DNA from: Ptychodera flava
Taxonomy: Eukaryota; Hemichordata; Enteropneusta; Ptychoderidae
Reading direction: 5' to 3'
Assembly: GCF_041260155.1 (NCBI RefSeq)
Contig: NC_091942.1
Coordinates: 16,686,001 to 16,750,000 of the forward strand
DNA length: 64,000 nucleotides
Both the position numbers and the translations under genes were made by a program. Below the pieces are notes generated by a model. The model saw only the letters and a list, made by a program, of their open reading frames with translations, made no database searches and had not been told where the DNA came from. This document shows positions 22,138-59,898 of the stretch, in pieces. Within the stretch, counting starts at the first letter, position 1, and each line of letters begins with the position of its first letter.

Positions 22138-23172
22138 GCCACGGAACTCTATTACTTTTTAATATAAACTCTAATTTTTCTTGACAATATCTTTAATATT
22201 TGTAAGAGATTTTATTTCTCCACCGCAAACTTTTAATTTTGTACGGGCAACTTTATCTTAACATTATCTTAACTTTAACTTCTCGAAAGTAGTTTTAGTT
22301 TTAACCATAAACAAAATATGTTTCTCAAAAGTATTTTTTATTTTGTAAAACAAAAGTAAAATTTTTCAAGATAACAAATTCCCCTACACGTCATGGAAAT
22401 TTATTACTTTTGAACATAAACTCATATTTCTTGACAATATATTTAATATTTGTAAGAAATTTTATTTCTCCACAGCAAACTTTTATTTCTGAACGGGGAA
22501 ACTTTATTTTTGGGGCAAACTGTTTTAAAAACTTTGTACAAAAAAACTTTAACTTTAAAAAATAACTTTAACTTTGAACAAAATATTTGTTTCTCAAAAG
22601 CGTTTTTTATTCGAAAAGAAGTAAAAATTGTTCACAGCAAGAGTTGAAGATTTTTGCTAAGCGCGAACTGAGTTACTTAAATGACATAACCTTATGTCTT
22701 TAGAGCAGAAAACTTAAATTCTTAAAGAAAAGTTTTATTTTCCAAGAGTAAAATTAATTTCTTTATGGAAAAAAGATTTTCTCAGAGCAGCAAATTGAAA
22801 TACAGAGAATAAAACTTTTTTCTCAATGGCGAGAAATTATTTTCTGAAGACAACAAAACTAATTCCTTCAAGATATATTTTCTACATATGAGTGTGGTTT
22901 AAGAATTTGGTAAAACTGAACTGAGAAAGAACGAAAAAGGAAGGATGAAAAAGTCAAACTTACTTTTCTTCAGAGCGAAATTCATTTCTGAGAGGAGAAA
23001 TATTTCATGTGAGGGCGCAATTACCTATAATGCATAGCAAACTCTTTCTAGCGAGAGTAAACATATTTTGGGGAAGAGTAAAACATTTTTCCGACGAGCA
23101 AAACTTTATTTTAACGGCGGCGGAAGTTAAAGTATCCCACCATGCAACACCCAAGTTTGATGACCCAGAGTC
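22138..23172 (+). repeat. Left terminal inverted repeat, outer part
   Basis: Aligns in inverse orientation to 58860-59898 with few small gaps. Begins with two tandem 245-base subrepeats (CCTACACGCCACGGAA at 22131 and CCTACACGTCATGGAA at 22384). The remainder is made of short reiterated A/T-rich blocks alternating AAACTTTTATTT, TTTCTC and GAGAGNAAA. Ends with ATGCAACACCCAAGTTTGAT and CCAGAGT, where the insertion begins. Confidence 0.9.
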
Positions 23173-24457
23173 TCCGAGACAACCATGACTGACTTCATCG
23201 GCGATACAGGCACGCTAGCCCGGCCCTAGCTGCAGTACAGTACCTCGAGGTTTTACCTGGGTATTTGGGTCGGACGGTTTGCCGTACTGTACTGCAGCTA
23301 GCCCGGCCCTACCCTGCCTGCGTACGATGCTGTGTGTTGTGGCCATAACGCCGGGAACACACAGCATCGTATGCAGGGCTATGGGCACGGGCACGCAAAC
23401 GAGTCAGTTCAACAGTTGCCACTTGTCTGAGTCCCCGAAGAACGGTTTTGTGTTTGAGTGATTCGTCCTGACAACAGACGTTGTGCGACTGGATGGACCG
23501 CATTGGGTTCCTTCATTAGCTCTGCATGGGCTGCGTGTTACAAGCGTTATGCGCCAGTCAATGTAAACCCCACTCCCCCCACCTCGGGGTTTAGTGGGGG
23601 ATTTGGAAATTAGTCCTGTGAAATCTGCCAAATGCCCCACCCCCTGGGGCAAGACAATCCGGAAAATCCCCACCTAAACCAAGTAAATCCCCCACATACG
23701 GGGTGGGGAATTTGTAAATTCCTACACACAACCACTCTTTGGAATTTTCATGTCGTAAACAACCTGCATCAATATAAAAAGTTCATGTTCAACTTTAGAA
23801 CAATTTTTATCATTTAAAACCGGGTTTTGTGACATTTATGCTGTTCACAAATGTCTATCACAATCAACACAAATAGATCCAGGAAAATAACATACTTTTT
23901 GCATTTGTTTTTCAGCCACTTATACTGTGACCAGATAAAGTGTTGAGGTGTCACTGTCACGTCACCTATTTTGGAGCAAAAATTTACAATATTTTTCAGT
24001 CTATTTGCTTGTATGTTGTCAGGCATAAACACATTTCAGGCTAGAACAAATGATTTAGTTAGATCGAAACACCAGATGTATCACACAAGACATGTCGCCT
24101 CAATAAACTAATTAAAGCTGATGAACAAGATACATGATGTCCAATCTCACAAGTGCAGCTGTTTTGTCTTCTCGCTCTCATGTTACAAGCACAATTACAA
24201 TTCTACATCAGTCATGCACTGATTTAAAACAAGCAGAGGAATTAAAATTCACAATGATCCGTGTTTATTCATCACAATACACGGCAGAAAGATACTGTGT
24301 AAAACTCAACAGAACAGATGATCAGAATGATCACAATGATGAAACAGAACTGTTTCCCTAGCTATATGGGTCATCATGAATAAATTTGATAATACATTTA
24401 GCGGACATAAAAAGGAATCCCGTCGTGACCGAACATGTTTTCCAAATACACAAGCAA

Positions 24458-24792
24458 TTTAAAGGGACAAAGTCGGCCATTTTTCATGAATTTTGTTTGA
24501 TGTGAGATACTACTTATATTGTTTGACATGTCAAAAGATACCGAAAGAATGGCTGACCATGCTATATTCGACCCCGGTTTTAGACAGGATACATGCAAAC
24601 CATCGCAAAAATGAATTCATGGTCATGACCATTAATTCGTTTTCGCGATGGTTTTACTTAATTTTTATAAAACTGGGGTCGAATATATGTATGGTCACTC
24701 ATTCATTCAGTATCTTTCAACATGTCAAACAAAATATGTAGTATATCGCATCAAACAAAATTCATGAAAAATGACTGACTTTGTCCCTTTAA
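24458..24792. mobile_element. MITE with TTTAAAGGGACAAAGTC ends
   Basis: Inverted ends TTTAAAGGGACAAAGTC and GACTTTGTCCCTTTAA extend inward over more than 100 bases (TTTTTCATGAATTTTGTTTG and complement), so it is nearly a foldback. A degenerate half copy may lie at 48335-48380 (GAAAAATGAGTGACTCTGTT). Confidence 0.8.
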
Positions 24793-25133
24793 GCTTTATC
24801 AAAAATAGAGTTGACCCGGAGGTCATTTTAGTGCTGGACCATGTCGATGACGCATCGTGAACATCCGAAATGTCACGCTCACGTGGGAAAATGTGAGAAA
24901 TTTTGCATATGGTATGTTCAGTTTTCTAAAACATAAGAATACACGGCAGATGAAAATCATTTGTTTAGTTATCGATATTTAAGCCATCAATCACAAATAT
25001 ACTGTCATACACACCTCTGAATATTGCTGCATCGCGTTCATCAATAGCCAGTTGAAAAGCTGCTTACCGGCCCACATGGCCTTGACAGCCACCTTTCGCC
25101 ATGCTACCGCTCTGAACAACAACATACCATTAC

Positions 25134-26302
25134 CAGGGCCTGAAAATTTCTGTTTTTCCCACTGGTCCCAGCACCAGTGACCTGGGTTTTTTTTACTGGT
25201 CCCAAGGTAAAATCCACTGGTCCTCAAAAAATTTGCATAGCAATACAAGAATGATTCATTTCTCATACTCATGTTATATATGCATTTCTATCAGATTTGC
25301 TTGGGATTTACATACAGCATAAACTGCCAATCTTTTTAATACAGACACACTGCATAAACATTTACTTGGTAGTTTTCTCAAGTTCTTTTACACACACTTG
25401 ACATGCTTTTTACTATTGCTATAAAGTTCACTTCATTTTTACAATTGCCCAGCGGTTGATTCTTTTCCATTTAAATTGTAAAAAAATAGGTTGAAAACAC
25501 CAAATATCTGAGAGGGACTTCTTTGTGATAGCAACAGCAAATTGCCATAACGCTGTTTTGACAAGCTAGGCGGTTCTTGTTAAGGTCAACTACAATCGAG
25601 CTAGGGGGTCTTGACTATATAACGAATTCAGCATGGTGACCTTCTAAATTCAGAAGCTTGCTTGCCACGGACGATCGGAAAGTTGTAATGAGACTCCTTC
25701 CAGAGAATTTTACTGCAAAATACTACTTTGATAGACAGAGATATGATATTTTCACACAATTTTGGGGTTGCTGATATTTTTAGCTGAGGCTATGGTCTGG
25801 TTTTTACCACATTAAATTTTACATGTAAAATGAGTACGCGTACGTGGCCCGTCAGTGCAGTGGCTAGTGGACGCACATCGCCTGGCTCATAACATGAATC
25901 GCAAACTGTAATAGAGTAACTGATTTTCCTTTAGAGTTTATGTTGTGATGAAAGAAATAGACTAAATTTTAAATGTTTGATTGACTTAAAGACGCGATAA
26001 TTATTGTAATTTTGTAGCTAAAAGACGTAGTCTCTCAATGGAATGGGCTCTTGGTTTTAGTGTAACTGGCTTAGTGCGTCTCTGCTACCTCCATGGTTTC
26101 AGTAACTTCGGTATTTTGGGGGGACGTAGTTTCTAATTTTTGTGAAAAGACACTAGAACACAATCTGGGAAAGCACTCGACATTCCCTTGCAAAATAAAT
26201 TGGCTCCTTTTTGTATTGGTCTGCGGACTTTTTAGGGGTAATTAGTACTGGTTCGGGATAAAAAATCACTGGTCCGGGACCTCGGGTAATTTTCAGGCCC
26301 TG
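25134..26302. mobile_element. Non-autonomous hAT-like element with CAGGGCCTGAAAATT ends
   Basis: Starts CAGGGCCTGAAAATTTC and ends with the inverse AATTTTCAGGCCCTG. Subterminal ACTGGTCC motifs repeat several times at both ends. The CAGGG start is typical of hAT. The 8 bases on each side do not match, so no target duplication is claimed. About 1.17 kb, no transposase seen. Confidence 0.65.
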
Positions 26303-26540
26303 CATACGTGCGCATGCGTAGTTATTTACGAACATCTTCTGGGCCTGTCCGTCAAAAGAATAGGGGGAGCAAAACGAGGCAATTGCCCCACCCCCTCGGG
26401 CACAGTTTCATGGCACACACGGTCTAATCCCCCACATTTTTCCCGTATCGCCCGAGGTGGGGGGGGGGGGGGGGTTTACATTGACTGGCGCATTATACGG
26501 CCTCCCACCACATAACGCCGGTAACACACAGCCCTGCCAT

Positions 26541-26684
26541 CACAGGCGTACGTTTTCTGGGTAGTTTCTATAAGTGTAGTTTATTCTACGTTTCGACGTT
26601 CTCTTCCGTAGCCTAATCACCTATAACGTCGAAACGTAGAATAAACTACACTTATAGAAACTACCCAGAAAACGTACGCCTGTG
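26541..26684. mobile_element. Pristine 144-bp foldback MITE with 8-bp target duplication
   Basis: Two 60-base arms are perfect inverted copies, starting CACAGGCGTACGTTTTCTGG, around a 24-base loop. CCTGCCAT lies immediately on both sides (26533-26540 and 26685-26692). Perfect arms and duplication imply a recent insertion. The 8-bp duplication and CACAGG start suggest hAT, though KDZ elements are also reported with duplications of this size. Confidence 0.9.
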
Positions 26685-27075
26685 CCTGCCATGCATAGCC
26701 CTGAGTACAGGTCTGTGTGTTCCGGGCGTTATAGACCTGTATGCAGGGCTATGCCATGCAGAGCTAATGAAGAACCCCAATGCGGTCCCATCGCACACCG
26801 TCTGCCGTCAGGACGAATCACTCAAACATAAAACCGTTCTTCGAGGACTCAGACAAGTGGCAACTGACCCGCGTGCCCGTAGCCCTGTGTACGATGTTGT
26901 GAGTTCCCGGCGTTATACGGCCCCAACACACAGCATCGTACGCAGGCAGGGTAGGGCCGGGCTGGCGTGCCCGTATCGCCGATGAAGTCAGTCATGGTTG
27001 TCTCGGAGAGCAGATCGTCCATGTAGCCGACACGAACACGAACTGTCTGATACCGGCTACCAACTCGGAGACTCT

Positions 27076-27169
27076 GGAGGTATGATATTTACCGTTTTCT
27101 GGTCTATACACGCAAATAAGAAACTCGCTCTGATTGGCTAACGAAGTCATTAGAACCTCTAGCTTACTC
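27076..27169 (+). repeat. Left terminal inverted repeat, inner part
   Basis: Continues the arm after the insertion: AGGTATGATA, GGTCT, AGAAACTCGCTCTGATTGG, then AGAACCTCTAGCT.ACTC, all found inverted at 58769-58860. Homology stops here. Confidence 0.85.
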
Positions 27170-27245
27170 GATTTTTCATATATCAGCAGTAAACGACCGG
27201 CAGACGACCAGCAGGACAGCGAACGAGCACGTGGACCTCATACTT
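27130..27245 (+). promoter_or_regulatory. Putative promoter and first non-coding exon at the inner edge of the left arm
   Basis: CTCTGATTGG (inverse CCAAT box) is one of the best conserved words of both arms. In the left arm it is followed by a GC-richer stretch ending TTTAAG with a GTAATT donor-like site at 27240-27246. Transcription inward to the protease gene would read the satellite array as a first intron. This is inference; no transcript evidence is available. Confidence 0.3.
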
Positions 27246-27363: not shown

Positions 27364-27547
27364 GGGACTGGTCAGTTTCTTCGGCCTGGGGGGGGGGGGG
27401 CCGGTGGATTATTTTTTGCCGACGTCAAAAAGTGGCTGACCCCCCCTATTCCAAATTTTGAAAACAGGGTGACCCCCCCTATTCCAAATTTCTAAAACAG
27501 GGTGACCCCCCCCCCCAGGCGCGACAAAGGTAAAACAAAAGATGGAC

Positions 27548-27603
<56 letters not shown>

Positions 27604-28766
27604 TTTACATTTTACATATATTTATATTTTAAATAGTCATTCTATGTTTTAGTGAAATTGTTGACATGTCAGTTGTAAGATAGGAATTTCAAAGTGTCAA
27701 TCTTAAAGTTTAAATACAGTACATTTGAATGAGCTGTATTTTGAATGAGCTGTGAATGTATTTCACACTTTCTCTGCTTAACCAGATGTCCTGAACTGTT
27801 GTACAGAAATGGATGTCAATCATTAATATCAAAGAGGAAAAAGCAGTGAATCAAAAACTTTGATGGGTGTTAAGACTTGCAAACCATCCAATTAAATCTC
27901 CTGAGGAGCCATAGAGAGCTTTTTTAGCCAAATCTGATGTGTACAGTGTCTGAGAGGACCTTTTCTTGTAACACTGAAACCATAAAAGCACAGCTAATAA
28001 TGACAAAAACTGCCTTTTTTAACTGTTATTTTGTTCATAAAAAAGCATCTTTCTACAGAAAACCTATGAAACAAAGGAAAATAATTGCATCAATGAGAAG
28101 GAAAGATATCTTGTCATTTTTCTATCTCTAAAATAAGTCACTGTATCAAATATATATTGTGAAATATTTGTGCATGTTGCTTTCTCATACTGAATTCTCA
28201 CAGAGAGAACAGAAAAGTATCAGGAATTTGTCATCCTTTTCATATGAAATGCAGATTTCATAATGGTACACTTTCACTTAGCAAACATCAAGATATCTCT
28301 GAAAGTATGGCGCCCGAAGGGCGCACCAAAAAATATGAAACATCCTGATATCTCTGATATATATTACTTGTATATTAAAGTCATGCACCTGAAGGGCATG
28401 CTGAAAGATGTATGATATATTAAAGTAATGAGCTTGAAGAGCACGCTGAAAAATATTGAACATACAGATATCTCTGATGTATGTATGCTTGATATGTTAA
28501 AGTTGGGCGTGCTGAAAAATATGACTGATTATTAAAGTTACGCGCCTGAAGGGCGCGCCGAAAAATACAACTGAATGATGAATTTTGTGGCTGACACTAG
28601 CATTTTAGGCAATGATGAGCCATGTCAAAATTCAAAAAACACACTGACCCCCCCTATTGGGCATTTCAAAAACATGGTGACCCCCCCTATCACCAAAGTC
28701 AAAAACAGGGTGACCCCCCCCATGAATCCACCGGCCCCCCCCAGGCTGAAGAAACTGACCAGTCCC
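27364..28766. mobile_element. Non-autonomous Harbinger-like element
   Basis: Inverted ends GGGACTGGTCAGTTTCTTC.GCCTGGGGG with TTA on both sides (27361-27363 and 28767-28769), a 3-bp duplication. Subterminal runs of TGACCCCCCCTATT repeat two to three times at each end. The interior has a (TA)n tract at 27553-27597 and the GGGCGC repeats at 28300-28570. No transposase recognised. Confidence 0.7.
28300..28570 (+). repeat. Five diverged units with a GCGCCTGAAGGGCGCGC core
   Basis: Each unit has a small GC stem (CGCGCCTGAAGGGCGCG at best) set in AT-rich DNA followed by CYGAAAAATAT; ATATTAAAGT usually precedes. Units are 50-75 bp apart and the stem pairing is kept in most despite changes, e.g. ATGCACCTGAAGGGCATGC. 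Confidence 0.75.
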
Positions 28767-28774
28767 TTATTAAT

Positions 28775-31186
28775 AACTTTAATTACCCCTACATAGTCAA
28801 GGTTCTACTCAGACATCAAGGTTCTTACTTTACAGATCCACACAGTTGAAATAAACCCAATGTTCTAAGTGAATATGTTATAAACCATCCTATATTATCA
28901 TTTTTTTTCATTATTAATTATTAATTAATATTTTATTTGCCTTCACAGTGTCAAGGTTCTTAAGTACTGATTTTCATACCAAACGCGAAGGTTCTTACTT
29001 TTCATATACACAAAATTAAATAAACGCAATGATTTAAGTTACTACATTATACAACCATCCCATATTATCATATACACATACAATATTATCATATTTAATC
29101 ATTATCAATCATTAACTATTATTATATTTTGCCGTACATTGTCAAGGTTCTTAAGTACTGATTTTCATACCAAACATCAAGGTACTTTACAGATCCACAC
29201 AAACCCAATGTTTTAAGTGAATATGTTATAAACAAGCCTATATTATCATATTTCTCATTATTAATTATTAATTAATATTTTATTATGCCTTCACATTGTC
29301 AAGGTTCTTAAGTACTGATTTTCATACCAAAAGCGAAGGTTCTTACTTTACAGATCCACAAAATCAAATAAACCCAATGTTTTAAGGTACTACATTATAC
29401 AACCATCCCATATTATCATATACACATACCATATTATCATATTTAATCATTATCAATCATTAATTATTATTATATTTTGCCCCTACTTTGTCAAGGTTCT
29501 TAAGTACTGATTTTCATACCAAAAGCGAAGGTTTTTACTTTACAGATCCACAAAATCAAATAAACCCAATGTTTTAAGGTACTACATTATACAACCATCC
29601 CATATTATCATATACACATACCATATTATCATATTTAATCATTATCAATCATTAATTAATATTATATTTTGCCCCTACATTGTCAAGGTTCTTAAGTACT
29701 GATTTCCATACCAAACGCGAAGGTTCTTACTTTTCATATCCACAAAATCAAATAAACCCAATGATTTAAGTTACTACATTATACAACCATCCCATATTAT
29801 CATATACACATACCATATTATCATTTTTGGTCACTATCAATAATTAATTATCATAATATTTTGCCCCTACATTGTCAAGATTCTTAAGCACTGATTTTCA
29901 TACCAAACATCAAGGTTCTTACTTAACAGATCCACACAGTTGAAATAAACCCAATGTTCTAAGTGACTATATTATAAACCATCCCATGTTATCATATTTC
30001 TCATTATTAGTTATTAATTATTATTTGATTTGCCTTCACAGTGTCAAGGTTCTTAAGCACTGATTTTCATACCAAACATCAAGGTTCTTACTTTACAGAT
30101 CCACACAGTTGAAATAAACTCAATGTTCTAAGTGAATATGTTATAAACCATCCTATATTATCATATTTTCTCATTATTAATTATTAATTAATATTTTATT
30201 ATGCCTTCACATCGTCAAGGTTCTTAAGTACTGATTTTCATACCAAACGCGAAGGTTCTACTTTACAGATCCACAAAATCAAATAAACCCAATGATTTAA
30301 GTTACTACATTATACAACCATCCCATATTATCATATACACATACAATATTATCATATTTAATCATTATCAATCATTAACTATTATTATATTTTGCCGTAC
30401 ATTGTCAAGGTTCTTAAGTACTGATTTTCATACCAAACATCAAGGTTCTTACTTTACAGATCCACACAGTTGAAATAAACCCAATGTTTTAAGTGAATAT
30501 GTTATAAACAAGCCTATATTATCATATTTCTCATTATTAATTATTAATTAATATTTTATTTTGCCTTCACATTGTCAAGGTTCTTAAAAGTACTGATTTT
30601 CATACCGAACATCAAGGTTCTTACTTTACAGATCCACAAAATCAAATAAACCCAAAGTTCTAAGTTACTACATTATACCGGTACAACCATCCTTTATTAT
30701 CATATATACATGCCATATTATCATATCTATTCACTATCAATCGTTAATTAATTATTATTTGCCCCTACAATGTCAAGGTTCTTAAGCACTGATTTCCATA
30801 CCAAACATCAAGGTTCTACTTTACAGATCCACACAGTCAAATAAACCCAATGTTCTAAGTTCCAGTTTTACAACCATCCCATATTATCATATACACATGC
30901 CATATTATCATTTTTAGTCACTATCAATCATTAATTATCATTATATTTTGCCCCTACATTGTCAAGGTTCTTAAGCACTGATTTCCATACCAAACATCAA
31001 GGTTCTTACTTTACAGATCCACACAGTTGAAATAAACCCAATGTTCTAAGTGACTATGTTATAAACCATCCCATGTTATCATATTTCTCATTAATATTTA
31101 TTTATTTATATTATATTTTGCCTTCACACTGTCAAGGTTCTTAAATACTGATTCTCATACCATACATCAAGGTTCTTACTTTACAG
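28775..31186 (+). repeat. Left satellite array, 157-196 bp unit
   Basis: About 13 tandem units, detected by the word TCAAGGTTCTTAAG at 28951, 29142, 29299, 29491, 29683, 29875, 30043, 30215, 30404, 30575, 30771, 30961 and 31131. Each unit holds a pair of CAAGGTTCTTA boxes about 36 bases apart, then TTTACAGATCCACA, CCCAATGTT, ATATTATCATAT and ATTAATTA blocks. Shorter and longer unit types are interspersed. It lies between the left arm and the first protease exon. Confidence 0.95.
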
Positions 31187-31639
31187 TCTTCCCATATAGT
31201 TCTGACACTGATTTTGCAGAAAGACACATCCATCTATCTTGCAAAGTATGAGGGTTATTGCAGAGAAAGACTTACATAATTCACACATGGTTTTTTGCAG
31301 GTGTCATATGAGCACTTTGATAAGTACAATGTTTTCCTGTAGCAAATGATCATGTGAGGCAAGATATGCTCACTATTTTCAAAACACCTGATATCACTTC
31401 CTGGTCTTTGTTCTGTGTGTTTTTTGATTGTCTGTATGGTTTGTGACTGTCTTTGCAACTGGCCATGTAAATATTTGACCTATGAACTTTAGAATATAGA
31501 TGGTAATATATACCTTTTCCATATTTGAATTAACATATTTTATAATTAAGGTCACATACCAATTAATTCTGATCAGACACATCTGATCAACTGAAGGTTA
31601 TCTGGTTATAATGCAATTTAATTTTTTGTCGTTATTTAG

Positions 31640-34600
31640 ATATTTATACAATGTTGCGTCTTGACTTTGCCAAGAAACGTCGAAAAGACAGTGACAATTG
31701 GAAAAGAATTTTGAACAGAGTGAGTATTAAGTACTGTAACAGATAAAGTCTAAGTATTGTAAATGGTATGCTTACAGTGACACTAGTTTACAAGCTCTGA
31801 AATCATTGATAATTTCCATCATTTTATGCATCTCCAACATTATTACTGCCTTTATGTCATTGCAAACATGCTCTTAGTAACCGTAGTTTATTGTATTTGT
31901 TTTGCTGAGTCATAATAAGAAAAAAAACAGAAAAAATAACAAAATCCAACCTACCGTCCCCTATTATATATTATTGCCTGAATACATGGGTTAGGTGCCC
32001 GCCGAGAGCAGGTGACAATTTGCCCGACGCCAAAAGGGTAAATTGTCTCCTGCTGCGAGGGCACATCAACCCATGTATTCAGGCAATAATATTTTTATTA
32101 CATGCCTCTTCAAAGTTAATGCTATATGACATTTAGTTACAAGCAGGGCATTTTCAAACAATTTTACCATTATCAACCAGCGTCAAACAGATTTTAACGA
32201 AAGTCAAAATAGCAGTGCGCGCATGGATATTTTACATGTAGCGTTAAGCGTCTACTTTGACGTCGAAAACATCGAAAGGCTTCACTGGCCCGGGTAACCA
32301 TGGAAACCGGTCAGTACATCGTTCACCGGCCCGCTTACATCCCGGATGTTCCTATTCAAAACAATGCACTGATTTGCATTCACCTCAAGGCATGTAATAA
32401 CTCATATTGGAATCGCAGTCGAGATTGTAATAAAATTGTATTGATAATTAATTACTCATTGTTTTCCTCAAGGTAAAGAAGTTGGTTGACACAGGTGCTA
32501 ACGCCTGTGTCATTTACCAGAAAACAGGCCATAAAGCAGGCATTTATTTGAAGGTAGGCCATATATTATATTAAAGTAAGTAAGTGTAACAAAATTTTCA
32601 ATAATAGTTGCATCATTCCGTAATCTTACACTGACACAGGCAGAGGTTGCCAGCATTTATCCCATGCACAAAATTGTTGGCTCAGTAATGGAATTTACAA
32701 GGTATTTGGACTATATAACTTTGTCTTGATATTGTTGGTCCACCATGTTAATTTGCAGTTATGGGACTACTGGAAGAAAACCCCAGCAATGAATTTGTGC
32801 AGTGTATAAAACTTAGACAAATGATATGGTTATTCTGTCTGTTTATCTGTGTCTGTGAGAAAACCTTGTGAATAGAATCCAAAACAAACTAATTTCTTGT
32901 TTTTTTCATGTATATAGAATTGATAAAAATAGGTAGTAATCTACATTGTTAAATAACCAGTTAACATATTTATGAAATTTTTCCTGTAATTTCACGTTTT
33001 GTCTTTAACTTTTATCTTGCAATTGATTTCAACAATATCTGAAATATATTAATACTGATGGGAAACATTTAACGCATGGTTACTATTTGGTTCTTATCTG
33101 TAAATGTGTGTTAAATTGCACTTTCACATACATCTAGAAGAGAAGTGGATCAGTTAAAAATAACAGTTATGATACAAGTAATCACATAACTTTATAACAC
33201 ACCTCATCCACAGTCTGTGTTCTAATTCGCCAATTGATAGTCACGTGGGATGCGTTCTTTTTGTGCTGATCCACGTAAACGACGTCATCAGGCATCATTT
33301 GTCGGAACTGTTGCCTGCCAGGCATCAGTTCCGAAAAATGATGCCCGCTGACGTCAAAAAAAACATTGGCGCATGCGCGAACTGGAATGTAAACAGAGAT
33401 GTCGTCTGCGGCCGAGCGAAACGATAGTCGAGAAATTTCTCGGTTTATCCTACTTTCTGAAAAAGAACTGAATGCTCTGGTTTCCAACAAGGACTCGAAA
33501 CGAACGAAAACTATAATCAAAGGTGCATTGAACGTTTTGCAGAAGTATTGCGACCCTGTCGGGAAAACTTTTTTTGCCGAACCACTTCAACATATTACAT
33601 CATTCATGCGACAAGTTTTGTGTATAGTACGTTCTTATGCATGGCTACGGATGAGGTGTGTTATAAAACACATATTGACTGGCCATGCGGGCAACAGCAT
33701 ACGTCTGTACCCCGAGGGACTGTGAGTCACCCCCAAAAACAGACTGTTTCCCTCGGCCTACGGCCTCGGGAAACAGTCTGTTTTTGGGGGTGACTCACAG
33801 TCCCTCAGGGTACAGACGTATGCTGTTGCCCTCATGGCCAGTCAATATGTGTATACTGTTTCAAAAGCCTTGATTCAGAAGTAATAATTTAATGGGTACT
33901 ATACAAACAAAGAGCGGAAGCTATTTGAGAGTGAATTTCATTTCTTGATTCTCTTAACAGCATCTTCATGCATGATTTTCAGTCAGTACTTGATCTATCA
34001 CCAAATGTCTGATTGTACCAGTAGGAAGGTCATAATACCACAGGATTTACCTGAAAAGCTCTTTGTTTTACCTGTGTGTAAGAGGTAAGTACTTGTTTGT
34101 GAAGTTCCTGTTTTAATCTCTACATTCAATAGGGTTGTTATCTTGTTGTTTTTGTTTGTTTTTTTATTTTATTTTATTTTATTTTCTCATCAACAGCGCC
34201 ATCAGGCAGCCACTTACAGACAAGAAAATAAAAAAAAAGGTAAAATACGCTAAAATTTAAACAAACAAAAAAGCACTCTAAAAATCAAACAATATTGACA
34301 AAAACAAATTAACATGTCTTTAAAAAGTTGAATGAGATTCTTCAAAAACATCGACATCGCAAACCTTATCAATCAGATCATTAAAAAGTCGTGACGTACG
34401 TCCAATCAGGCCATTTTGTGTAACATCAACTCTACAATAAGGGATATGTAATAGAGGTCTATGTCTAGCAGAGTATCTAGGTACGCATAGACCATAAAAA
34501 CAATTGTTTTTGTTCTATATGAAATTAATTTTATTCTCTACTAAAGATATATTTTATATTTATATTGCTAATATTCTCTATTTCTACGTATTCTCAGTAT

Positions 34601-42719: not shown

Positions 42720-42835
42720 TTACAGAGGAGTGTGCCGATTGGTTATCTGTAAACAGCAATCAACAGTAGGGTACCTTAGGGATAACACCGAGTCTCAGAA
42801 TTTTAAATTCTTTCCGTTTTTGTGCGTGCAGTAAA
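42720..42835 (+). repeat. Dispersed repeat related to 47035-47275
   Basis: Shares GTGTGCC.ATT, TCTGT.AACAGCA, CAGTAG.GTA.CTTAG.GAT and TCTCAGAATTTTAAATTCTTT with the element at 47035. Confidence 0.6.
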
Positions 42836-42904
42836 TGGTAATGATAACGAACGGTAATTTATTAAACAAACACAGGGTAGTCACTTTCACACCCTATTGT
42901 ACAA

Positions 42905-46868: not shown

Positions 46869-47034
46869 GAAGGTGTGCGAATTACAAGGCTGTGCTAGGC
46901 TGCATTCAAAAAATATGGCGAGGGGGACTCTACAATTTCGGTCCCCTGTTACCTTTTTTGCATTTTCCAATTCTAAGGTCTGTTAAGGTAATTTAGTAAA
47001 AAAATGTTAGTAATAATAAACAAATCTACAATTT

Positions 47035-47275
47035 TCTAGGGTAGAATGGGTGTGCCAATTTGTATTCTGTGAACAGCATTCTACAGTAGAGTATCTTAGA
47101 GATAAAACTATCTCTCAGAATGTTAAAATTCCTTTTAGTTTATATACAATGGGGTGTGAAATTACCAACATGTTTTTTAAATAAATACCGCATTTTTGAG
47201 CATTTTAATTTACTACACAAAAACTAAAAGGAATTTAAAATTCTGAGACTTGCTTTTATCCCTAATGCACAAACA
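47035..47275. mobile_element. MITE-like inverted repeat
   Basis: TCTCAGAATGTTAAAATTCC on the left is matched in inverse by GGAATTTAAAATTCTGAGA on the right, with TTAGAGATAA and TTATCCCTAA further out. Related sequence at 42720-42835. Confidence 0.6.
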
Positions 47276-47575
47276 CAAATTAATAAGTGTAGTAGTATTT
47301 TATTGCATTATATTAATAAGTGTTAACCAATAATAAAATAAATTACTTATGTTACAAAAGTAAGATTGAAATTTCATGAAACCTTAATCATCTCATTAGC
47401 AATTTAACTTAGACAATCGGCTGCTGCTAGAACACCAGAACACCACTGTCTGATTTCTCATCACTGTTTGTATTCTAAATGTCCTGTTTTTCTGGTATAC
47501 TTTTTACTGTATTGTTCACCACCTTAAGATGTTGTTTTTGCATGGCATATGGAAGGCTTAATAAAAGAAATAAAT

Positions 47576-47612
47576 TATTATTATTATTACTATTATTATT
47601 ATTATTATTATT
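47576..47612 (+). repeat. (ATT)n microsatellite
   Basis: About twelve ATT units with one AC interruption, right after an AATAAAAGAAATAAA run that may be the A-rich tail of an older element. Confidence 0.9.
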
Positions 47613-47819
47613 GTCACTGACCAAAGTAATGCACGTCTATGTGAACTAAATCAAACACATGGTTTGACTCGCGTCATAATTTGTAACTATAAACCAGTGA
47701 CTTCAAATTCTGAACGTCGAATCTTTATGACTTCTGATTCTGTGATTTGAAAGAATTATCTCCTTGATTGAAGGTCTATTAAAATGCAAAAAAGCTACAT
47801 ATTTTTCTGATAGGCAAAT

Positions 47820-48180
47820 CAATTCTCAACGTTATCCCCCACTTTGAAGTATTGTAATGGGAGGTTAGACGTTAATAATCTAAATGGAACACAAATATCA
47901 TGACTTCGTGCATTCTTTCTTGAAACTTGCATTTGATTTCGCTGTGTTCTAATACATCCCGTGTAAAGTTTCATCAATTTCGTTTCATTCGTAATATTGC
48001 TATAGGACCACAATAGCTTCCTCACCTACATCCTTGTGCTCCAAGGGATTTTACAATGAGATCTTTCTCTCACATAAACACGACTATATGGAATACTGTT
48101 CCTTATGATCTTCGTCATTCCAAGTCTCCAATATCTTGTCGCCATGAAATCAACACTTACCTCTTTAAAACATGACTTTG
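47820..48180 (+). mobile_element. LINE 3' coding remnant
   Basis: Plus-strand frame ends SFSHINTTIWNTVPYDLRHS, then ISCRHEINTYLFKT and stop. This is the usual C-terminal pattern of L2/CR1-type ORF2 proteins (LWNSLP..IR, FK..LKTYLF). Only the last 60 or so codons are convincing; upstream is worn. Confidence 0.6.
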
Positions 48181-48584
48181 TAAACAATTTTTTTCAAATT
48201 GTATATTGTCAAATGTCTGTGAACTAAGATTTTTTTACAAGTTATTCCGTGTTTTATGCTAATCATCCTGCATGGCTCATTTATTTCTAAAATTATCAGT
48301 CTTGCATCTATACAGCTTGCATCAACATATTTGTGCATCAAAAAGAATGTGAAAAATGAGTGACTCTGTTCCTTTAATGGTTGTTTTGTTTAGTACATTT
48401 ACGGTTTAAATTATAAAATTTATGGGTGGTATTACATTTATGGAGATCAGTACATTTATGGGGTTACATAGGACCACCTCAAAAAATAGGATGGTGAACC
48501 ATCCTTTTGTTTTTGGCTGTTAAAATGAACCAAAGCACATCATTTGCAAAACTCATAAAAATGGAAATGTTCCCAACTTTTTTT

Positions 48585-49240
48585 TTGGTATTGTATTTTA
48601 TTTATTAACGTTTCCTATGTGGACTGAAAGTATACATATGTGAGCAGACTTAATACAAATGTTAGTGAATCTTGTCACATCCAGCCCCTTGGGCTTGTAC
48701 GGCAAAAAACAAATTCATTGTGAAATAAACAGATAAACAAATAAAATAACATTTTGTAAGTGCGAGAAGTTTATCTTACAAATTTACATTATATCCTTTG
48801 TTATAAGCAACAAGTCAGGTGTTTTGAGCATCAATAGTTCAATGTTATCGATGATATGAAGAGCAATGAATTCTGGGTATAAATCAGATACTTTTCCAAA
48901 TAATGTATCTCTTTGGGAAATATACATACAACAATCCAAAAGGAAATGTTTCTCAATTTCAATTTCTGACCCTTAACAAAAATTACAAGTTCTGTCTTTC
49001 ACTGGCAACTGCTGAAGTCTGCCTGATCATCTTTCTACTTTCAAAGGTAAAATACCATTTTATACTTGAGCAATAGTTGCAGTGAATAACAATTCTCTGT
49101 TCCATATTTTTTCTTACAATATACATATGTTCTTAACGTGGGTTTTCTACACACATCAGTAAACCACTTTTTCACAGTTATCTTTTAACTTACAAAAGGC
49201 ATTATCCAAATTTACAGTTTAAAGATTTGAAAAGTTTTGG
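48585..49240 (-). mobile_element. 5'-truncated LINE, C-terminal and 3' UTR remnant
   Basis: Minus-strand reading gives LQQLPVKDRTCNFC, then IEIEKHFLLDCCMY and RDTLFGKVSDLYPEF, the cysteine-containing C-terminal pattern seen in several LINE clades. A 3' UTR with GCCCAAGGGGCTGGATGTGA follows and ends in AATAAATAAAATACAATACC. At least one internal stop shows it is dead. Confidence 0.65.
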
Positions 49241-49258
49241 ACATGCGTTTACTGTAAA

Positions 49259-49738
49259 CACGATTGGAACTAATTTGGGATAATTGGATGGTGAAATAAT
49301 GCCGATTTAATCTACAACTGTAATCTCATCCGCTTTTCTTTTTGCATTACACACTTGTTTTTATGAGTAAGGCAAAAGTAATTAAATTCTTTCTTTTGCG
49401 TCCACCCTAAATGAGAAAAGGTACGCGTCTAAGCGGCTGAAAAACACACACAAGAAAATTAACACAATGTAATTTGATTGCAGCAAATAAAAAATTTGTA
49501 ACAAAATTTTAGTTCAGAAAAGCTAAGCGGTCATGTCCTAAAATTTCCTATTCAAATAAATTGTGTCTGTTTTTCATGAAAACCTTAAAAACCTAAGCGG
49601 GTGGGAACGCAAAACAAAGAATTTAATTACTTTGGCCTAATTTGTATTATTGCAACATTCAACTATCTGGCACCTAACACTTTGAGAAATTTAAAAAATA
49701 TGAAAATCAAATTGTCCCAAATTAGTTCCAATCGTGTT
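49259..49738. mobile_element. MITE with ATTGGAACTAATTTGGGA ends, copy 1
   Basis: Inverted ends at 49261-49287 and 49709-49736. A further inner inverted pair (AAAGTAATTAAATTCTTT at 49374 and complement at 49614) makes it nearly a foldback. A shorter copy lies at 60518-60716; the segment with GATTTAATCTACAACTGTAA and AGCGGATG-like sequence is common to both. Confidence 0.75.
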
Positions 49739-50921
49739 TGTAGTCAAATTGGATATGGCAGGACTGCCTACCTTAAAAAGTATGATGAAGAAATCTGGTT
49801 TTTTTTTAATTTTTTTGTACAAAAATTGATCAGAGCACATCTTATGCACATATCAGAGAGATGGCAGTACTTTTGAGTAAACCATGACCTTGTCTTTGAA
49901 AATTTTTATCATGACAGCCCTCATTACAAATAACTTGCCGTTTTTAACAAAATCAGATGTCTTTCAAATGCATCACCTGTAAATTCCTGCCTTCATTGTG
50001 ATTCAAAAAGCTAAAGAAATATCAAAGAAATATGTATAAATGTGAGGGAACTCCCATGAAAAGCTCATGCATTTCAAGAAATTTACATTTGGCTATATCA
50101 GTTTGTGCCAATGCTGTAGTAAATAGTTGTGATATCTTTATAATAACTAACATTTGAGATATTGACAATCCTAAGATTGTGGCGTTGAAAAATGTAATTT
50201 GAAACAGACATTTAGACAACTTTTTAGATTGATCATGGATGATGATTGTAATAACATAATTAAACAATTTTGTGACAAGTTAATTTTTGCATGATGCCAT
50301 TTATTATTCAGTTACATACAAATAAAATATCAACAAATTCTCAATATTTAACATCCTTAATCTCTAAAACAAGCAAAACATAATGAAATTCCAGATGCAA
50401 AAAAGCCAAACACACACATTCAAACAAAAAGAATAATTGATAAAATGACTCCTACACTACCACGCAAATCAATGTTGTGCTGGGTGCTTTTAATAAATGA
50501 AAGTCACCATAGGTTACAATACTGAAAATTTTGTACAACAGCCATTACTCCACATTTTGAGTACAAAATTTCATAGTTCTTATTTGTGAAATTACTATAA
50601 CTTGACATAAATTGACCTCTATATAAAAATAATGATGTAGTGTACTTGTCCTACAGCTTGTTTTCAATCTCTTTATGTTAAGAGAAGTCAAAGTAACTAT
50701 TGTTAACTTGATGCCATCATTTCCCATTGACAGAATATTGTAACATTGCAGAGTACATACACAGAAGTATGAGTGGGACAGGTCAAGGGTTGAGTATGTC
50801 TGAGACCAAGACCACAAGCATACTAAAAGGTTAAACACTTATGAAAATCAACCTCAAAAGTTCACCGACGATCAGTTTATACTAGCAGTTCATGCGCAGT
50901 CCTTATATTCAAAATTTTGCC
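49739..50921. other. Unassigned stretch 3' of the transposase-like gene
   Basis: AT-rich. No exon or repeat recognised. Confidence 0.4.
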
Positions 50922-54298
<3,377 letters not shown>

Positions 54299-54919
54299 CT
54301 TGAAACCAGATCACGCCTTGTCCTTTTCATTACTATGTAAATAAAATTAGAAAACATTCATGTACCTGAAAAGTGTGCTCATTATGTAGTTTAATTTATA
54401 AAATATACATGAACCTTCTGCTAAAAAATGAGATTGCAACATTTCTGCCAAGAATACATAACTTAGGAATGGAACTTTGATGTACAAGTCAACAATCATC
54501 ATTTATGTGATGATATGATGAAGGTGTAATTGTATGGATCAACTAACTATTAGTAAAGCAATGTATATTAAAGGGATACTATTTGTAACTTTGGGTTATC
54601 TTTTTTAGTGTCATCAACTGCAATTTCTCTTTCAGTGCCCTACAGAATAGTAAAATTCCCAATGTACCGTTTGCCTGTACATGTGTGATAACCATTGTAA
54701 CAGTAATTGTTATTGTTGTTAAAGTCCGGACAGTTTTTCACAAAAAATATGCCATTGTACAAATGCCATCTCAATTGAAGAGCTAAATACTGGGAATTTC
54801 ATCCTGACTCAGGGAAATGAAAAAGAAAGTGCCGGTAACACACACTACAGAAATAATGAAAAAATAGCGTTGTTACAGATGAAAAAACTTTAAGAGATGA
54901 ACAGATGTTTACTTAAATT

Positions 54920-57900
54920 TATTTGATTTTGTAGATCTGTAAAGTAAAACTCTTGATATCTAGCATGAAAACAGGTACCTCAAGAACATTGATGGGATCA
55001 GGGAGGTAAACTATGATAATTCATAATTAATAATGAGTAATTATCATCACATTGAATGTTAATGTGACTTAATTTGTAGTTAACCTAGAATCTTGAGTTG
55101 ATTTGACTTTGTGTACCTGTAAATAAAACCTTGATATCTGATCTGAAAAAGTACCCTAAGAACCTTGAGGATTTTGTGGAGATATAAAATATGATAATTC
55201 ATGATTAATAATGAGCGATTATCATCACACTGAAACTACATATGACTTTGCAACCAAGAACTTTGAGTTGATTTGACTTTGACCATCTTTACAAATTACA
55301 ACCTCTTTATCTGGTCTGAAAAAGGATACCTTAAGAACCTTGAGGATATTGCTGAGATAAAAAATGATAAATCAAAATAAAAAATGAGTAATTATCATCA
55401 TATTGAATATAAATGTGACTTTGTAACTCACAACCATGACTTGATTTGACTTTGTATGCTATTGTAAGGGTGAAAAAATAAGAACTTGGTATTTGGTATC
55501 TGAGAAAATAAGAACCTTGGTATTTGGTATCTGAGAAATTAAGAACCTTGATATCTGGTCTGGAAATAGGTACCTAAGAACCTTGATGATATCAGGGAGG
55601 TAAAATATGATAATTCTAATTAATAATGAGTTATTATCATAATTAAATATAAGTATTACTTCTTGTAACCTAGAACCTAGAGTTGATTTGACTTTATAGT
55701 TCTGTAAAAATAAGAACCTTGGTATTTGGTGACTCAGAAAAAAGGAACCTTGATCAGGTCTGGAAATAGTTACCTAAGAACCTTGATGGTATCATTGAGG
55801 TAAAATATGATAATTCATAATTATTAACGAGTTATTATCATAATTGGATATAAATATGACTTCTTTGTAAACTAGAACCTTGAGTTGATTTGACTTTGTA
55901 GTTCTGTAAAAAATAAGAAGCTAGATATATGGTCTGGAAATCAGTACCTTAAGAACCATGATGGTATCAGGGAGATAAAATCTGATAATGCATAATAAAT
56001 AATACGTAATCAGTAACACACTGAATACAGGTATGACTTTTTGACCGGAAAACCTTGAGTTGATTTGACTTTATTGGTCTGTTAAATTAAGAATCTTGAT
56101 ATTTTAATGAAAATGGCACCTTTAGAACCTTGATGGTGTAAGGGAAATGAAATATGATCATTAATAATTAATAAAATTGATTATAAGCACATTGATATAA
56201 ATATGAATTTGTGTTAAGAAAGAAGAGTTGATTTGACTTTGTAGGGCTGTAAAAATAAGAACCTTGGTATTTGGTATCTGAGAAAATAAGAACCTTGGTA
56301 TTTGGTATCTGAGAAAATAAGAACCTTGGTATTTGGTATCTGGAAATAGGTACCTAAGAACCTTGATGATATCAGGGATATGATAATTCATAGTTAATTA
56401 TAATGAATTATTATCATATTGGAATATAAATATGACCAATCCGTAACCTAGATCCTTGAGTTGATTTGACTTTGTAGGTCTGTAAAAATAAGAACCTTGG
56501 TAATTGGTATCTGAGAAAATAAGAACCTTGATATCTTGTCTGGAAATAGGTACCTTAAGAACCTTGATGATATCAGGGAGGTAAATATGATAATTCCTAA
56601 TTAATAATGAGTTATTATCATAATTGAATATAAATATGACTTCTTTGTAAACTAGAACCTTGAGCTGATTTGACTTTGTAGTTCTGTAAAATTAAGAACC
56701 TTGATATATGGTCTGGAAATCATTACCTTAAGAACCTTGATGGTGTAAGGGAAATTAAATATGATCATTAATAATTAATAAAATTAATTATTAGCACACT
56801 GAATATAAATATGAATTAGTGTTTAAGAGAGAAGACTTGATTTGACTTTGTAGGTCTGTAAAAATAAGAACCTTGGTATTTGGTATCTGAGAAAATAAGA
56901 ACCTTGATATCTTGTCTGGAAATAGGTACCTAAGAACCTTGATTGTATCAGGGAGGTAAAATATGATCATTCATAATTAATAATGACTTATTTTCATGTT
57001 GGAATATAAATATGACCACTTTGTAACCTAGAACCTTGAGTAAACTTCACTTTGTATAAGAACCTTGATCTCTGGTCTGGAAATAGGTACATAAGAACCT
57101 TGACAGTATCAGTGATGTGAAATATGATAATTCATAATTAATAATGATTATTTTCACATTTGAATATAAATATGACTACTTTGTAACCTAGAACCTTGAG
57201 TTAATATCACTTTGTATAAGAACCTTGATATCTGATCTGGAAATAGGTCTATAAGAACCTTGACAGTATCAGGGAGGCAAAATATGATAATTCATAATTA
57301 ATATTGAGTTATTATCATATTGGAATGTAAATATGTCCTCTTTGTAATCTAGAACCTTGAGAATTTCACTTTGTAGGTCTGTAATAATAAGAACCTTGAT
57401 ATTTGGTCTGGAAATCGGTACCTTAAGAACCTTGATGGTGTAAGGGAAATGAACTATGATCATTAATAACTAATACAAATTAATTATAAGCACACTGAAT
57501 ATAAATATGAATTTGTATTTAAGAAAGAAGAGTTGATTTGACTTTGTAGGTCTGTAAAAATAAGAACCTTGGTATTTGGTATCTGAGAAAATAAGAACCT
57601 TGGTATTTGGTATCTGAGAAAATAAGAACCTTGATATCTTGTCTGGAATTAGGTACGTAAGAACCTTGATAGTATCAGGGAGGAAAAATATGATAATTCA
57701 TAATTAATAATGACTTATTTTCATGTTGGAATATAAATATGACCACTTTGTAACCTATAACCTTGAGTTAATTTCACTTTGTACAAGAACCTTGATCTCT
57801 GGTCTGGAAATAGTTACATAAGAACCTTGATAGTATCAGGGAGGCAATTATTTTAAAATATGATAATTCTTAATTAATAATGAATTATTTCATGTTGGAA

Positions 57901-58515
57901 TATAGATAGGACCACTTTGTAACCTAGAACCTGGAGTTAATTTCACTTCGTATGAGAACCTTGATATCTGGTCTGGAAATAGGCACATAAGAACCTTGAT
58001 GGTATCAGGGAGGCAAAATATGATAATTCATAATTAATATTGAGTTATTATCGTATTGGAATATAAATATGACCTCTTTGTAACCTACTAACCTTGAGAA
58101 TTTCACTTTGTAGGCGATCTGTAAAAATAAGAACCCTAGGTACCTGAAAAAATAAGAACCTTGATATCTGGTTTGAAAATGGTACCATAAGCACCTTCAT
58201 GATATGAGGAAGATAAAATATGATCATTAGTAATTAATAACAAGTAATTATTAGCACACTGAATATAAATATGACTTTATGACTAAGAACCTTGAGTTGA
58301 TTTTACTTTGAAGGTCTGTAAAAATAAGAAACTTTACATCTGGTATTAAAATGGTACCTTAAGGACCTTGATGGTATCAGGGAGATAAAATATTATAATT
58401 CATAATTAATAATGAGTGATTATTAGCACACTGAATGTAAATATGACTTTGATTTGACTGAAAATAATTACCTTGAAATCTGTAGCTTTCGAACCTCGAT
58501 ATCAGTAAGATAATA
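54920..58515 (-). repeat. Right satellite array, inverted relative to the left array
   Basis: About 20 units of 165-195 bp. Units read TAAGAACCTTG, then ATATCTGGTCTGGAAATAGG, TACCTTAAGAACCTTGATGG, TATCAGGGAGGTAAAATATG, ATAATTCATAATTAATAATG and a TTGATTTGACTTTGTAG.TCT block, which is the inverse of the left array's order. Paired AAGAACCTTG boxes are about 37 bases apart, with extra local triplications of AAGAACCTTGGTATTTGGTA near 55490-55530, 56255-56345 and 57560-57620. Confidence 0.93.
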
Positions 58516-58768
58516 GTAATACTGGTTGTCTATATGGTTGTCTTAGGAATCTGTGTACGACCCGACAATAGTAAAAAGAAACAAAGTCAATATCATGATT
58601 TTGTTAATACTTGGTTATAGATGCAGATGACTGTATGTGATTGGCAATCTGGATAACGAAAAGCAAGGTATATTACCGTGTATGGGCCGCTCACACTGTC
58701 CTATGTGCTTATCGATCTTGTAGAATCAGTCACAGCATGGTCACATGACACGTTAGCTGTCATTTATT

Positions 58769-59898
58769 GAGTGAGCTAGAGGTTCTTAATATATCCTCAA
58801 CCAATCAGAGCGAGTTTCTAAATGGAGTGGACAGACCGGAATGTGGTAGGTATCATACCTCCTACTCTGGGTCATCAAACTTGGGTGTTGCATGGTGGGA
58901 TACTTTAACTTCCGCCGCCGTTAAAATAGTTTTGCTCGTCGGAAAAAATGTTTTACTCTTCCCAAAAATATGTTTACTCTCGCTAGAAAGAGTTTGCTAT
59001 GCATTATAGGTAATTGCGCCCTCACATGAAATATTTCTCCTCTCAGAAATAAATTTCGCTCTGAAGAAAAGTAAGTTTGACTTTTTCATCCCTTTTTCGT
59101 TCTTTCTCAGTTCAGTTTTACCAAATTCTTAAACCACACTCTCATATGTAGAAAATATATCTTGAAGGAATTAGTTTTGTTGTCTTCAGAAAATAATTTC
59201 TCGCCATTGAGAAAAAAGTTTTATTCACTATATTTCAATTTGCTGCTCTGAGAAAATCTTTTTTCCATAAAGAAATTAATTTTACTCTTGGAAAAATAAA
59301 ACTTTTCTTTAAGAATTTAAGTTTTCTGCTCTAAAGACATAAGGTTATGTCATTTAAGTAACTCAGTTCGCGCTTAGCAAAAATCTTCAACTCTTGCTGT
59401 GAACAATTTTTGCTTCTTTTCGAAATAAAAAACGTTTTTGAGAAACAAATATTTTGTTCAAAGTAAAAGTTATTTTTTAAAAGTTAAAGTTTTTTTGTTA
59501 AAAGTTTTTAAAAACAGTTTACCCCAAAAATAAAGTTTCCCCGTTCAGAAATAAAAGTTTGCTGTGGAGAAATAAAATTTCTTACAAATATTAAATATAT
59601 TGCCAAGAAATATGAGTTTATGTTCAAAAGTAATAAATTTCCATGACGTGTAGGAGTCTGTTATCTTGAAAAAATTTTACGTTTGTTTTACAAAATAAAA
59701 AATACTTTTGAGAAACATATTTTGTTTATGGTTAAAACTAAAACTACTTTCGAGAAGTTAAAGTTAAGATAATGTTAAGATAAAGTTACCCGTACAAAAT
59801 TAAAAGTTTGCGGTGGAGAAATAAAATCTCTTACAAATATTAAAGATATTGTCAAGAAAAATTAGAGTTTATATTCAAAAGTAATAGAGTTCCGTGGC
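58769..59898 (-). repeat. Right terminal inverted repeat, uninterrupted
   Basis: Inverse of 22138-23172 plus 27076-27169. Being unbroken, it shows the pre-insertion form of the arm: CCAGAGT joined to AGGAGGTATGATACC. Contains CCAATCAGAG (CCAAT box) at 58800-58809. Homology ends at GTTCCGTGGC. Confidence 0.9.

Follow-up and report, generated by a model that had tools for sequence, protein, structure and literature searches.

In a 64,000-nucleotide stretch of contig NC_091942.1 of Ptychodera flava (the window), about 38 kb are enclosed by inverted arms, which raises the question of what kind of element this locus holds and how much of the 38 kb belongs to it. A sequence-only reading had taken the full 38 kb as the element's own size, arranged bilaterally as arm, array, gene, gene, array and arm. 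We give roughly even chances that the locus is one copy of a large, decayed foldback-type terminal-inverted-repeat (TIR) transposon, with a plan like that of Galileo or Tetris but larger. The original, presumably mobile, would have measured ~18 kb, with an inverted arm of ~1.1 kb, an array of 3.5-3.8 kb whose units of ~170-190 bp face inward, a core of ~8 kb, and the mirrored array and arm in that probable order. Its growth to 38 kb would be due to three later insertions on the left side, measuring ~3.9, ~1.4 and ~14.2 kb, the insertions and their order being our reconstruction; ~19.6 kb of the present element thus looks like later additions and not like its own sequence.

Terminal arms and probable left subterminal inserts

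The following features define the two ends of the element.

22138-23171, plus strand: left terminal inverted-repeat arm, 97% identical over 1042 columns to 59898-58864
58864-59898, minus strand: right terminal inverted-repeat arm, from its alignment to the left arm
23172-27075: insert 1, ~3.9 kb, at which arm identity drops
27076-27172, plus strand: left-arm continuation inward of insert 1, 77% identical to 58862-58766
58766-58862, minus strand: mirror continuation of the right arm, from its alignment to 27076-27172
27364-28766: insert 2, ~1.4 kb, with inverted ends GGGACTGGTCAGTTTCTTC and TTA flanking both sides, as read from the sequence

The inverted arms noticed earlier were recovered with their outer ends at 22138 and 59898, and 1011 of 1042 aligned positions are identical (97%), with 16 substitutions and 16 gap columns. 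The left arm includes two tandem subunits (22129-22259 resembles 22381-22510 at 86%). The outermost ~8 bases of the left terminus are perhaps missing at the right terminus. Searches with exact arm patterns against viral contigs and genome contigs, and with 22138-26138 against phages, gave no related locus. The flanks were considered as extra arm copies and rejected, their scores lying inside the shuffled range. Also discarded was a first exon mirrored on the two sides with AAGGTAATTA as its splice donor, the two copies being misaligned in position and a third copy occurring at 14479.

Measured per 75 columns, arm identity is 0.92-1.0 outside insert 1 and then falls to 0.75, 0.60 and 0.44. The continuation beyond insert 1 contains CTCGCTCTGATTGG, which we take to be CCAAT-box-like, mirrored at the right and found nowhere else in the window. 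Since the arms continue at 77% and the mirrored arrays described below have a mean identity of 0.655, the symmetry appears to be older than the 97% arms suggest. Gene conversion may have homogenised the arms as far as the heterology made by insert 1, and, if this is true, the drop in identity would mark cleanly where gene conversion between the inverted arms came to a halt at a heterology. Insert 1 has inverted ends of its own (23297-23529 and 26754-26966, 83%), and insert 2 is presumably Harbinger-like.

Mirrored box arrays

Between the arms, the repeat arrays and the regions that they delimit are as follows.

28798-31189, plus strand: array A1, cut into units of 154-198 bp and probably the left array's outer part
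31201-45446: putative insert 3 of ~14.2 kb, splitting the left array
45448-46874, plus strand: array A2, probably the left array's inner part, with an inner edge placed to within some tens of bases
46875-54850: core, ~8 kb, between the inner array ends, right edge at ~54850 to 54910
54911-58451, minus strand: array R, the right array, in mirror orientation with ~31-bp sub-repeats, weak similarity perhaps reaching ~54850

Allowing at most one mismatch, the box CAAGGTTCTTA has 78 matches in the window, where about 1 would be expected by chance (our own arithmetic, assuming uniform bases). All except one at 7764 fall into three arrays, each confined to a single strand: 23 at 28817-31168 (plus), 15 at 45583-46829 (plus) and 39 at 55157-58360 (minus), so that polarity is plus for 38/38 boxes in A1 and A2 and minus for 39/39 in R. 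At least two such boxes occur in 36 of the 43 units as cut, often spaced by ~35 bp. Mean unit identity between A1 and R is 0.655. For three of the A2 units, identity to units of A1 is 0.959-0.976, and the inner units of A2 are nearer to R (0.821, 0.792) than to A1 (0.756, 0.716). The summed left array (~3.8 kb) is about as long as the right one (~3.5 kb). No related locus was obtained with the array pattern against viral contigs.

These data are in agreement with a single inverted-repeat element having mirrored, inward-facing satellites, as first proposed, except that the arrays number three instead of two, A2 having been missed; the bilateral plan likewise holds for arms and arrays, with a left side interrupted by inserts. 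The boxes may be repeated binding sites for the transposase of the element, so that each end would offer the same kind of polar landing zone with many sites, a help in pairing distant ends, by analogy with what has partly been shown for Galileo. If confirmed, the locus would offer a natural case for asking whether subterminal satellites are multi-site transposase landing zones offsetting length.

The element combines long TIRs (~1.03 kb, 97%, with older homology beyond) with mirror-oriented tandem repeats in or beside them (77/78 boxes in three single-strand arrays, the sides diverged). The target-site duplication that the sequence-only reading hoped to define was not found at the element ends, and for this reason we describe the element as built like a foldback and do not file it as a proven member; the duplication could have been lost, the right terminus looking shortened.

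The 14.2 kb block

A stretch of 26-29 bp is common to the end of A1 and the outer end of A2, and it includes a rare 9-mer, CCATATAGT, which on the plus strand occurs only at 31192 and 45465 (one minus-strand copy lies at 48083). Because the two ends have these sequences in common, we infer a single left array split by a ~14.2 kb insertion carrying the Ulp1-like exons described below. The phases of the units point the same way: in 15 of 28 in-register alignments A1 breaks off within the unit at +53/+54, in 10 of 12 A2 begins 130-140 bp ahead of its next box, and the unit rejoined across the block would be 174-176 bp long, the halves being complementary. The duplication flanking the block is imperfect. 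A coincidence of the inner ends of A2 and R, suggested by 82 aligned bp, was dropped, since a mutual alignment must end both together and an independent check disagreed: similarity to single units ends between +51 and +123 for A2, and for R between +51 and +208, with +140 or thereabouts the commonest end.

Coding segments

Five exon-like segments were considered, four on the left and one in the core.

33961-34084, plus strand: tentative exon of the Ulp1 gene (..EKLFVLPVCK) between a good acceptor and a good donor, end aligned to an Ulp1-like protease
35568-35603, plus strand: tentative micro-exon of the Ulp1 gene (HHWFLAVFQGN, with a candidate catalytic His), its phase agreeing with that of the exon before it
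36902-36985, plus strand: tentative Ulp1-gene exon (..VADSPYHYHVKHFHYIE, candidate Asp), placed by eye, weak acceptor
38076-38150, plus strand: Ulp1-type exon with active-site motif (LTKCQQTNVQDCGVYCLYFMNTVLK), intact splice sites, Peptidase_C48 E 0.0076, below the Pfam cut-off
50960-51124, minus strand: exon-like segment (..CSKAYNLDIYPQWRHLNSQVVEQANSHVKKLKAMLSYMKSQTFMTHCKLFFYDN), possibly KDZ-like by motif resemblance

Two inward-facing spliced genes had been announced; one good Ulp1-type exon and one KDZ-looking segment stand, and neither gene could be completed. The Ulp1 label of the left exons is weakly supported. Their top Pfam family is Peptidase_C48, below cut-off (E 0.0032-0.0076). Joining the exons added nothing, since the joined exons score 16.8 bits, compared with 16.5 for the exon alone and 17.8 for its 63-residue frame. 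Their sole PDB match is an Ulp1-like protease at E 1.3, the His and Asp exons being tentative, and there was no PDB match for one plus-strand frame of 31202-46201 or for the 25-residue exon alone. A protein search with the Ulp1-type exon gave no candidate. With hand-set splice-site weights, used also in scoring exons listed above, exon-like candidates on the plus strand of the block show no excess (10 versus a control mean of 9.1), while its minus strand has 14 versus 7.2, and its top score, 21.1, exceeds the 95% level (17.3).

In the core, the minus-strand segment 51124-50960, the one exon-like segment seen that might belong to a multi-exon transposase gene, looks KDZ-like in its motif, and a KDZ transposase is possible. 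The KDZ domain (PF18758) was absent from the Pfam scans, whose limits were E 0.1 for the scanned regions and E 5 and 10 for the exon, so that the KDZ label was not confirmed. The same scans gave no transposase domain of whatever kind, including a P-type transposase or THAP domain and a Ginger1-type integrase, only the Ulp1-like exons; nor did they reveal the hallmarks of Polinton/Maverick elements, namely DNA polymerase B and a retroviral-type integrase. They ran on frames with X for stop codons, in which short single exons can be missed, and covered the element inward of the left arm, on the plus strand to ~29400 and from ~31200 to 55200 and on the minus strand to 54998, leaving the right array and its arm outside. 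As a control, host INTS15 was recovered in 2 of 3 frames, a gene with long exons in frames of 1,100 residues compared with up to 5,000 in the scans. NCBIfam gave nothing for three segments, a motif search for a KDZ exon upstream of 51124 found none, a protein search with the KDZ-like exon gave no candidate, and its four pattern matches in viral contigs included no relative. Rfam at gathering cut-offs and a tRNA search yielded nothing; a loose cut-off on 46800-61000 let through four matches below threshold, to three microRNA models and to a plant-virus RNA model, each of them at or close to an ACAT repeat at 53.4 kb.

Alternative explanations

That the 14.2 kb block is original, A2 being an additional interior array homogenised with A1, is an unlikely reading that nevertheless merits weight, and it overlaps with the KDZ-type reading below. 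The near identity of three A2 units to A1 units would follow from it, no terminal repeats were detected that would mark the block as a mobile insert, and the inner ends of A2 and R show no independent coincidence; against it stand the same 26-29 bp with its rare 9-mer at both junctions and the complementary unit phases. Highly improbable in our view is an origin without any transposon, as a segmental inverted duplication or a palindrome-forming satellite locus. The lack of a target-site duplication at the ends would suit it, but homology at 77% past insert 1 and arrays as old as their divergence implies fit poorly with arms made by a recent segmental inverted duplication, and repeated arm subunits with subterminal arrays are described for foldback elements in the excerpted text of PMC4079207.

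A giant KDZ-type (Kyakuja-Dileera-Zisupton) transposon, whose Ulp1-like and KDZ-like genes would both be its own and face inward, is improbable. Besides the KDZ-like look of the core segment, acceptor-bounded candidates on the core minus strand exceed the Markov control (12 versus a mean of 4.7), and Zisupton genes are multi-exonic according to the part of PMC9297572 drawn on here. Against this, the top core score of 17.1 misses the control 95% level of 17.6, no KDZ family appeared in the Pfam scans, no 8-bp duplication of the kind Zisupton makes (PMC12730594, in excerpt) was found at the ends, and the Ulp1-like exons appear to sit in the largest later insertion, outside any bilateral plan of two genes. 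Still more doubtful is that the locus represents a new DNA transposon lineage, made up of very large animal elements that encode a multi-exon KDZ-like transposase together with a SUMO-protease-like partner; the transposase would then read tens of polar boxes in the mirrored arrays, and satellite amplification would tune the end recognition of a long element. The enlarged, decayed foldback-type transposon is the reading compared below with known systems.

Comparison with known transposons

The comparisons draw on excerpts of the cited papers. Zisupton/KDZ elements are multi-exon DNA transposons found in animals, with exon numbers of 18 and 31 for two families of Pristionchus (PMC9297572) and, for Zisupton, an 8-bp target duplication (PMC12730594), and one exon here looks KDZ-like by its motif; unlike them, the present element has neither a PF18758 match in the regions scanned nor an 8-bp duplication at its ends, and the excerpts of both papers do not mention long repetitive TIRs for KDZ. 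An Ulp1 protease domain occurs in Ginger1 and in animal Mutator elements, some with introns (PMC2836005), a likeness limited here by the weak support for the Ulp1 label. The Ginger1 entries compared here range from 2.6 to 7.1 kb, have TIRs of 44-270 bp and carry Ulp1 as the C-terminal domain of an integrase-like transposase (PMC2836005), whereas no such transposase domain appeared in our Pfam scans.

The layout, for which the sequence-only reading knew no named family, has counterparts in Galileo and Tetris, both described as having long TIRs that contain tandem arrays (PMC3688188, PMC4079207). Galileo, of the P superfamily in Drosophila, has TIRs >1 kb whose internal tandem repeats carry extra transposase binding sites, bound by its THAP domain (PMC3688188). 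TIRs >1 kb and tandem repeats are common to both, and the differences are 77 boxes here versus three sites shown for Galileo, and Pfam scans here without THAP or P-type transposase. In Tetris of Drosophila virilis, the foldback TIRs reach 1.7 kb and consist of an outer flanking domain followed by tandem ~220 bp AT-rich units, which became satellite-like, around a middle without apparent coding capacity (PMC4079207). A target duplication of 8-10 bp has been regarded as Mutator-like for Tetris. The general foldback build is already known, and neither its enlargement nor the gene-conversion footprint would overturn present knowledge. The element described here shares with Tetris long TIRs in which an outer domain precedes a tandem array, and differs in its arrays of 3.5-3.8 kb per side, diverged between sides, around a ~8 kb core; confirmation would carry the foldback plan over to a much larger element that has a core region.

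Termini, arms and inserts

The anatomy of the element at 22138-59898 is real and unusual in size, and the reading that fits best is a DNA transposon of foldback type, now decayed, that grew by nested insertions. The inverted arms claimed by the sequence-only reading were confirmed by pairwise alignment, with 1011 of 1042 aligned positions identical between 22138-23171 and 59898-58864. Each arm contains two tandem subunits of about 86% identity, and likeness to the inner subunit extends the left end outward by a few bases (CCCCTACACG). Since the right end has no counterpart to this extension, the right terminus is, from its sequence, probably slightly shortened. Common words of 5-10 bases around both ends revealed no target-site duplication; the only such word outside both arms is the 5-mer TGTTC, at a distance of 24 bases on the left and 4 bases on the right. 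At 22114-22147, the left flank GTTCCGTACGGTGGC stands opposite the arm-terminal GCCACGGAAC in an imperfect palindrome, beyond which longer similarity between left flank and arm is absent.

Inserts 1 and 2, both on the left side, and the three arrays are placed as follows:

about 23172-27075: insert 1, following the left arm, with CCAGAGTCTCCGAG and CTCGGAGACTCTGG as its boundaries
27364-28766: insert 2, with inverted ends and TTA at each side
28798-31189 (+): array A1
45448-46874 (+): array A2
54911-58451 (-): right array R

In steps of 75 columns, the two arms are 0.92-1.0 identical as far as insert 1, after which identity falls to 0.75, 0.60 and 0.44. This drop points to gene conversion, which would have run between the arms and stopped at the heterology of insert 1. 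Beyond this insert, the segment 27076-27172 is 77% identical to 58862-58766, where the right arm continues. Within these otherwise divergent continuations, the 14-mer CTCGCTCTGATTGG occurs at the mirror positions 27124 and 58801, its only copies in the window, and is a possible candidate for a promoter element in each arm.

Long self-complementary hairpins at 24459-24792 (84%), 26541-26684 (90%), 33668-33852 (94%) and 31968-32092 (79%) are probably MITE-like inserts inside the element. A 110-bp sequence at 49259-49368, in the core between A2 and R, has an inverted 89% copy at 60606-60715, just beyond the element, and is likely a short dispersed repeat.

Arrays and a proposed split of the left array

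When at most one mismatch is allowed, the window contains 78 copies of the box CAAGGTTCTTA, of which 23 lie in A1, 15 in A2, 39 in R and one elsewhere; all array copies are on the + strand in A1 and A2 and on the - strand in R. The mirror-image satellites proposed earlier thus stand as regards opposite box strands on left and right, but the third array, A2, was missing from that description. With at most two mismatches, 33, 15 and 54 boxes are found in A1, A2 and R, respectively, many at 35-37 bp spacing, and R also shows steps of about 31 bp. Unit lengths as cut span 154-198 bp (A1), 158-189 bp (A2) and 42-243 bp (R). Among units of 120-260 bp, mean identity is 0.789 within A1, 0.743 for A1-A2, 0.675 for A2-R and 0.655 for A1-R; the mirror symmetry of the arrays is thus old, in contrast to the 97% arms. 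The lone non-array box, at 7764, falls in a repeat stretch outside the element (7534-8095, units of about 143 bp); another such stretch lies at 18312-18797 (about 42/84 bp).

Three outer units of A2 show 0.959-0.976 identity to A1 units. Two of its three innermost units are nearer R (0.821 and 0.792, versus 0.756 and 0.716 to A1), the last being almost undecided between R and A1 (0.669 versus 0.649). The A1 end (GTTCTTACTTTACAG..CCATATAGT) and the A2 start (GTTCCTACTTTACCG..CCATATAGT) have 26-29 bp in common, mismatches and gaps included; on the + strand CCATATAGT is found only there, and on the - strand once in the window, at 48083. Of 34 units tried for A1, 28 aligned in register, and in 15 of these A1 exits the repeat at +53 or +54, counted from its first box; of 31 tried for A2, 12 alignments counted, and in 10 of these the entry point lies 130-140 bp ahead of the next A2 box, so that the two halves jointly complete one unit of 174-176 bp. 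From this common junction stretch and the complementary unit halves, we propose that A1 and A2 were a single left array, which would have been split by an insertion of about 14.2 kb (insert 3, 31201-45446). Terminal repeats of this insertion were looked for at the block and none were found. The 38 kb is not borne out as the original size, as subtraction of the three inserts leaves about 18.2 kb. A common inner end of A2 and R was also considered: the two give an 82 bp mutual alignment, but their unit-by-unit similarity ends differ, and this candidate was rejected.

Coding signals

The candidate exons are as follows:

33961-34084 (+), 35568-35603 (+) and 36902-36985 (+): further candidate exons of a putative Ulp1 gene, by eye and phase
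38076-38150 (+): Ulp1-type exon with clean splice sites and the pattern Q-x-N-x-x-D-C-G
51124-50960 (-): exon-like segment in the core, whose acceptor is strong and whose donor is weak

We take Q-x-N-x-x-D-C-G to be the pattern of Ulp1-type proteases. The best Pfam family for 38076-38150 is Peptidase_C48 (E 0.0076, under the curated cut-off), and joining the exons brought no meaningful rise in Pfam score. Searched against PDB (E up to 10), the joined exons gave a sole match, an Ulp1-like SUMO protease (E 1.3), with the His-Trp and Gln/Cys motifs aligned. The phase from 36902-36985 to 38076-38150 closes only with another exon or donor. The two-gene plan suggested before is not established. The same holds for the KDZ assignment: the likeness of 51124-50960 to KDZ transposases is putative, and KDZ is absent from the Pfam results for this segment.

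Exon-like candidates were compared with a control of 30 Markov resamples. On the - strand they number 12 versus 4.7 in the core (46875-54850) and 14 versus 7.2 in 31200-45440, where the best score lies above the control's 95% level and a family was recognised for none. On the + strand, the core has 3 versus 2.7 and the block 10 versus 9.1. The INTS15 gene, as a positive control, gave 15 versus 2.0. Three of 10 open frames tested, on the - strand in 14808-17124, match Integrator complex subunit 15 (E 6.3e-33, 5.7e-12 and 3.2e-20) and are host gene exons about 5 kb from the element. This neighbouring gene makes a metazoan origin of the window probable. At 43799-44041 (-), an open frame of 80 residues (..NDLRPVALTSLLDKSMER..) presumably resembles a non-LTR reverse transcriptase fragment; Pfam and NCBIfam gave no match to it.

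Comparison with known transposons

A limited full-text search, with most subscription papers outside its reach, found no description of this element, and a full-text literature search found no paper combining Zisupton with Ulp1. In a review of giant eukaryotic transposons (PMC6431247), a term search of the text found neither KDZ, Zisupton nor Ulp1. Other papers report multi-exonic genes in Zisupton (PMC9297572) and the presence of Ulp1 both in Ginger1 and in hydra and lancelet Mutator elements (PMC2836005). Long TIRs made of an outer domain and tandem repeats are described for Tetris (PMC4079207) and Galileo (PMC3688188), and for Galileo binding assays demonstrated extra transposase sites within the tandem repeats (PMC3688188).
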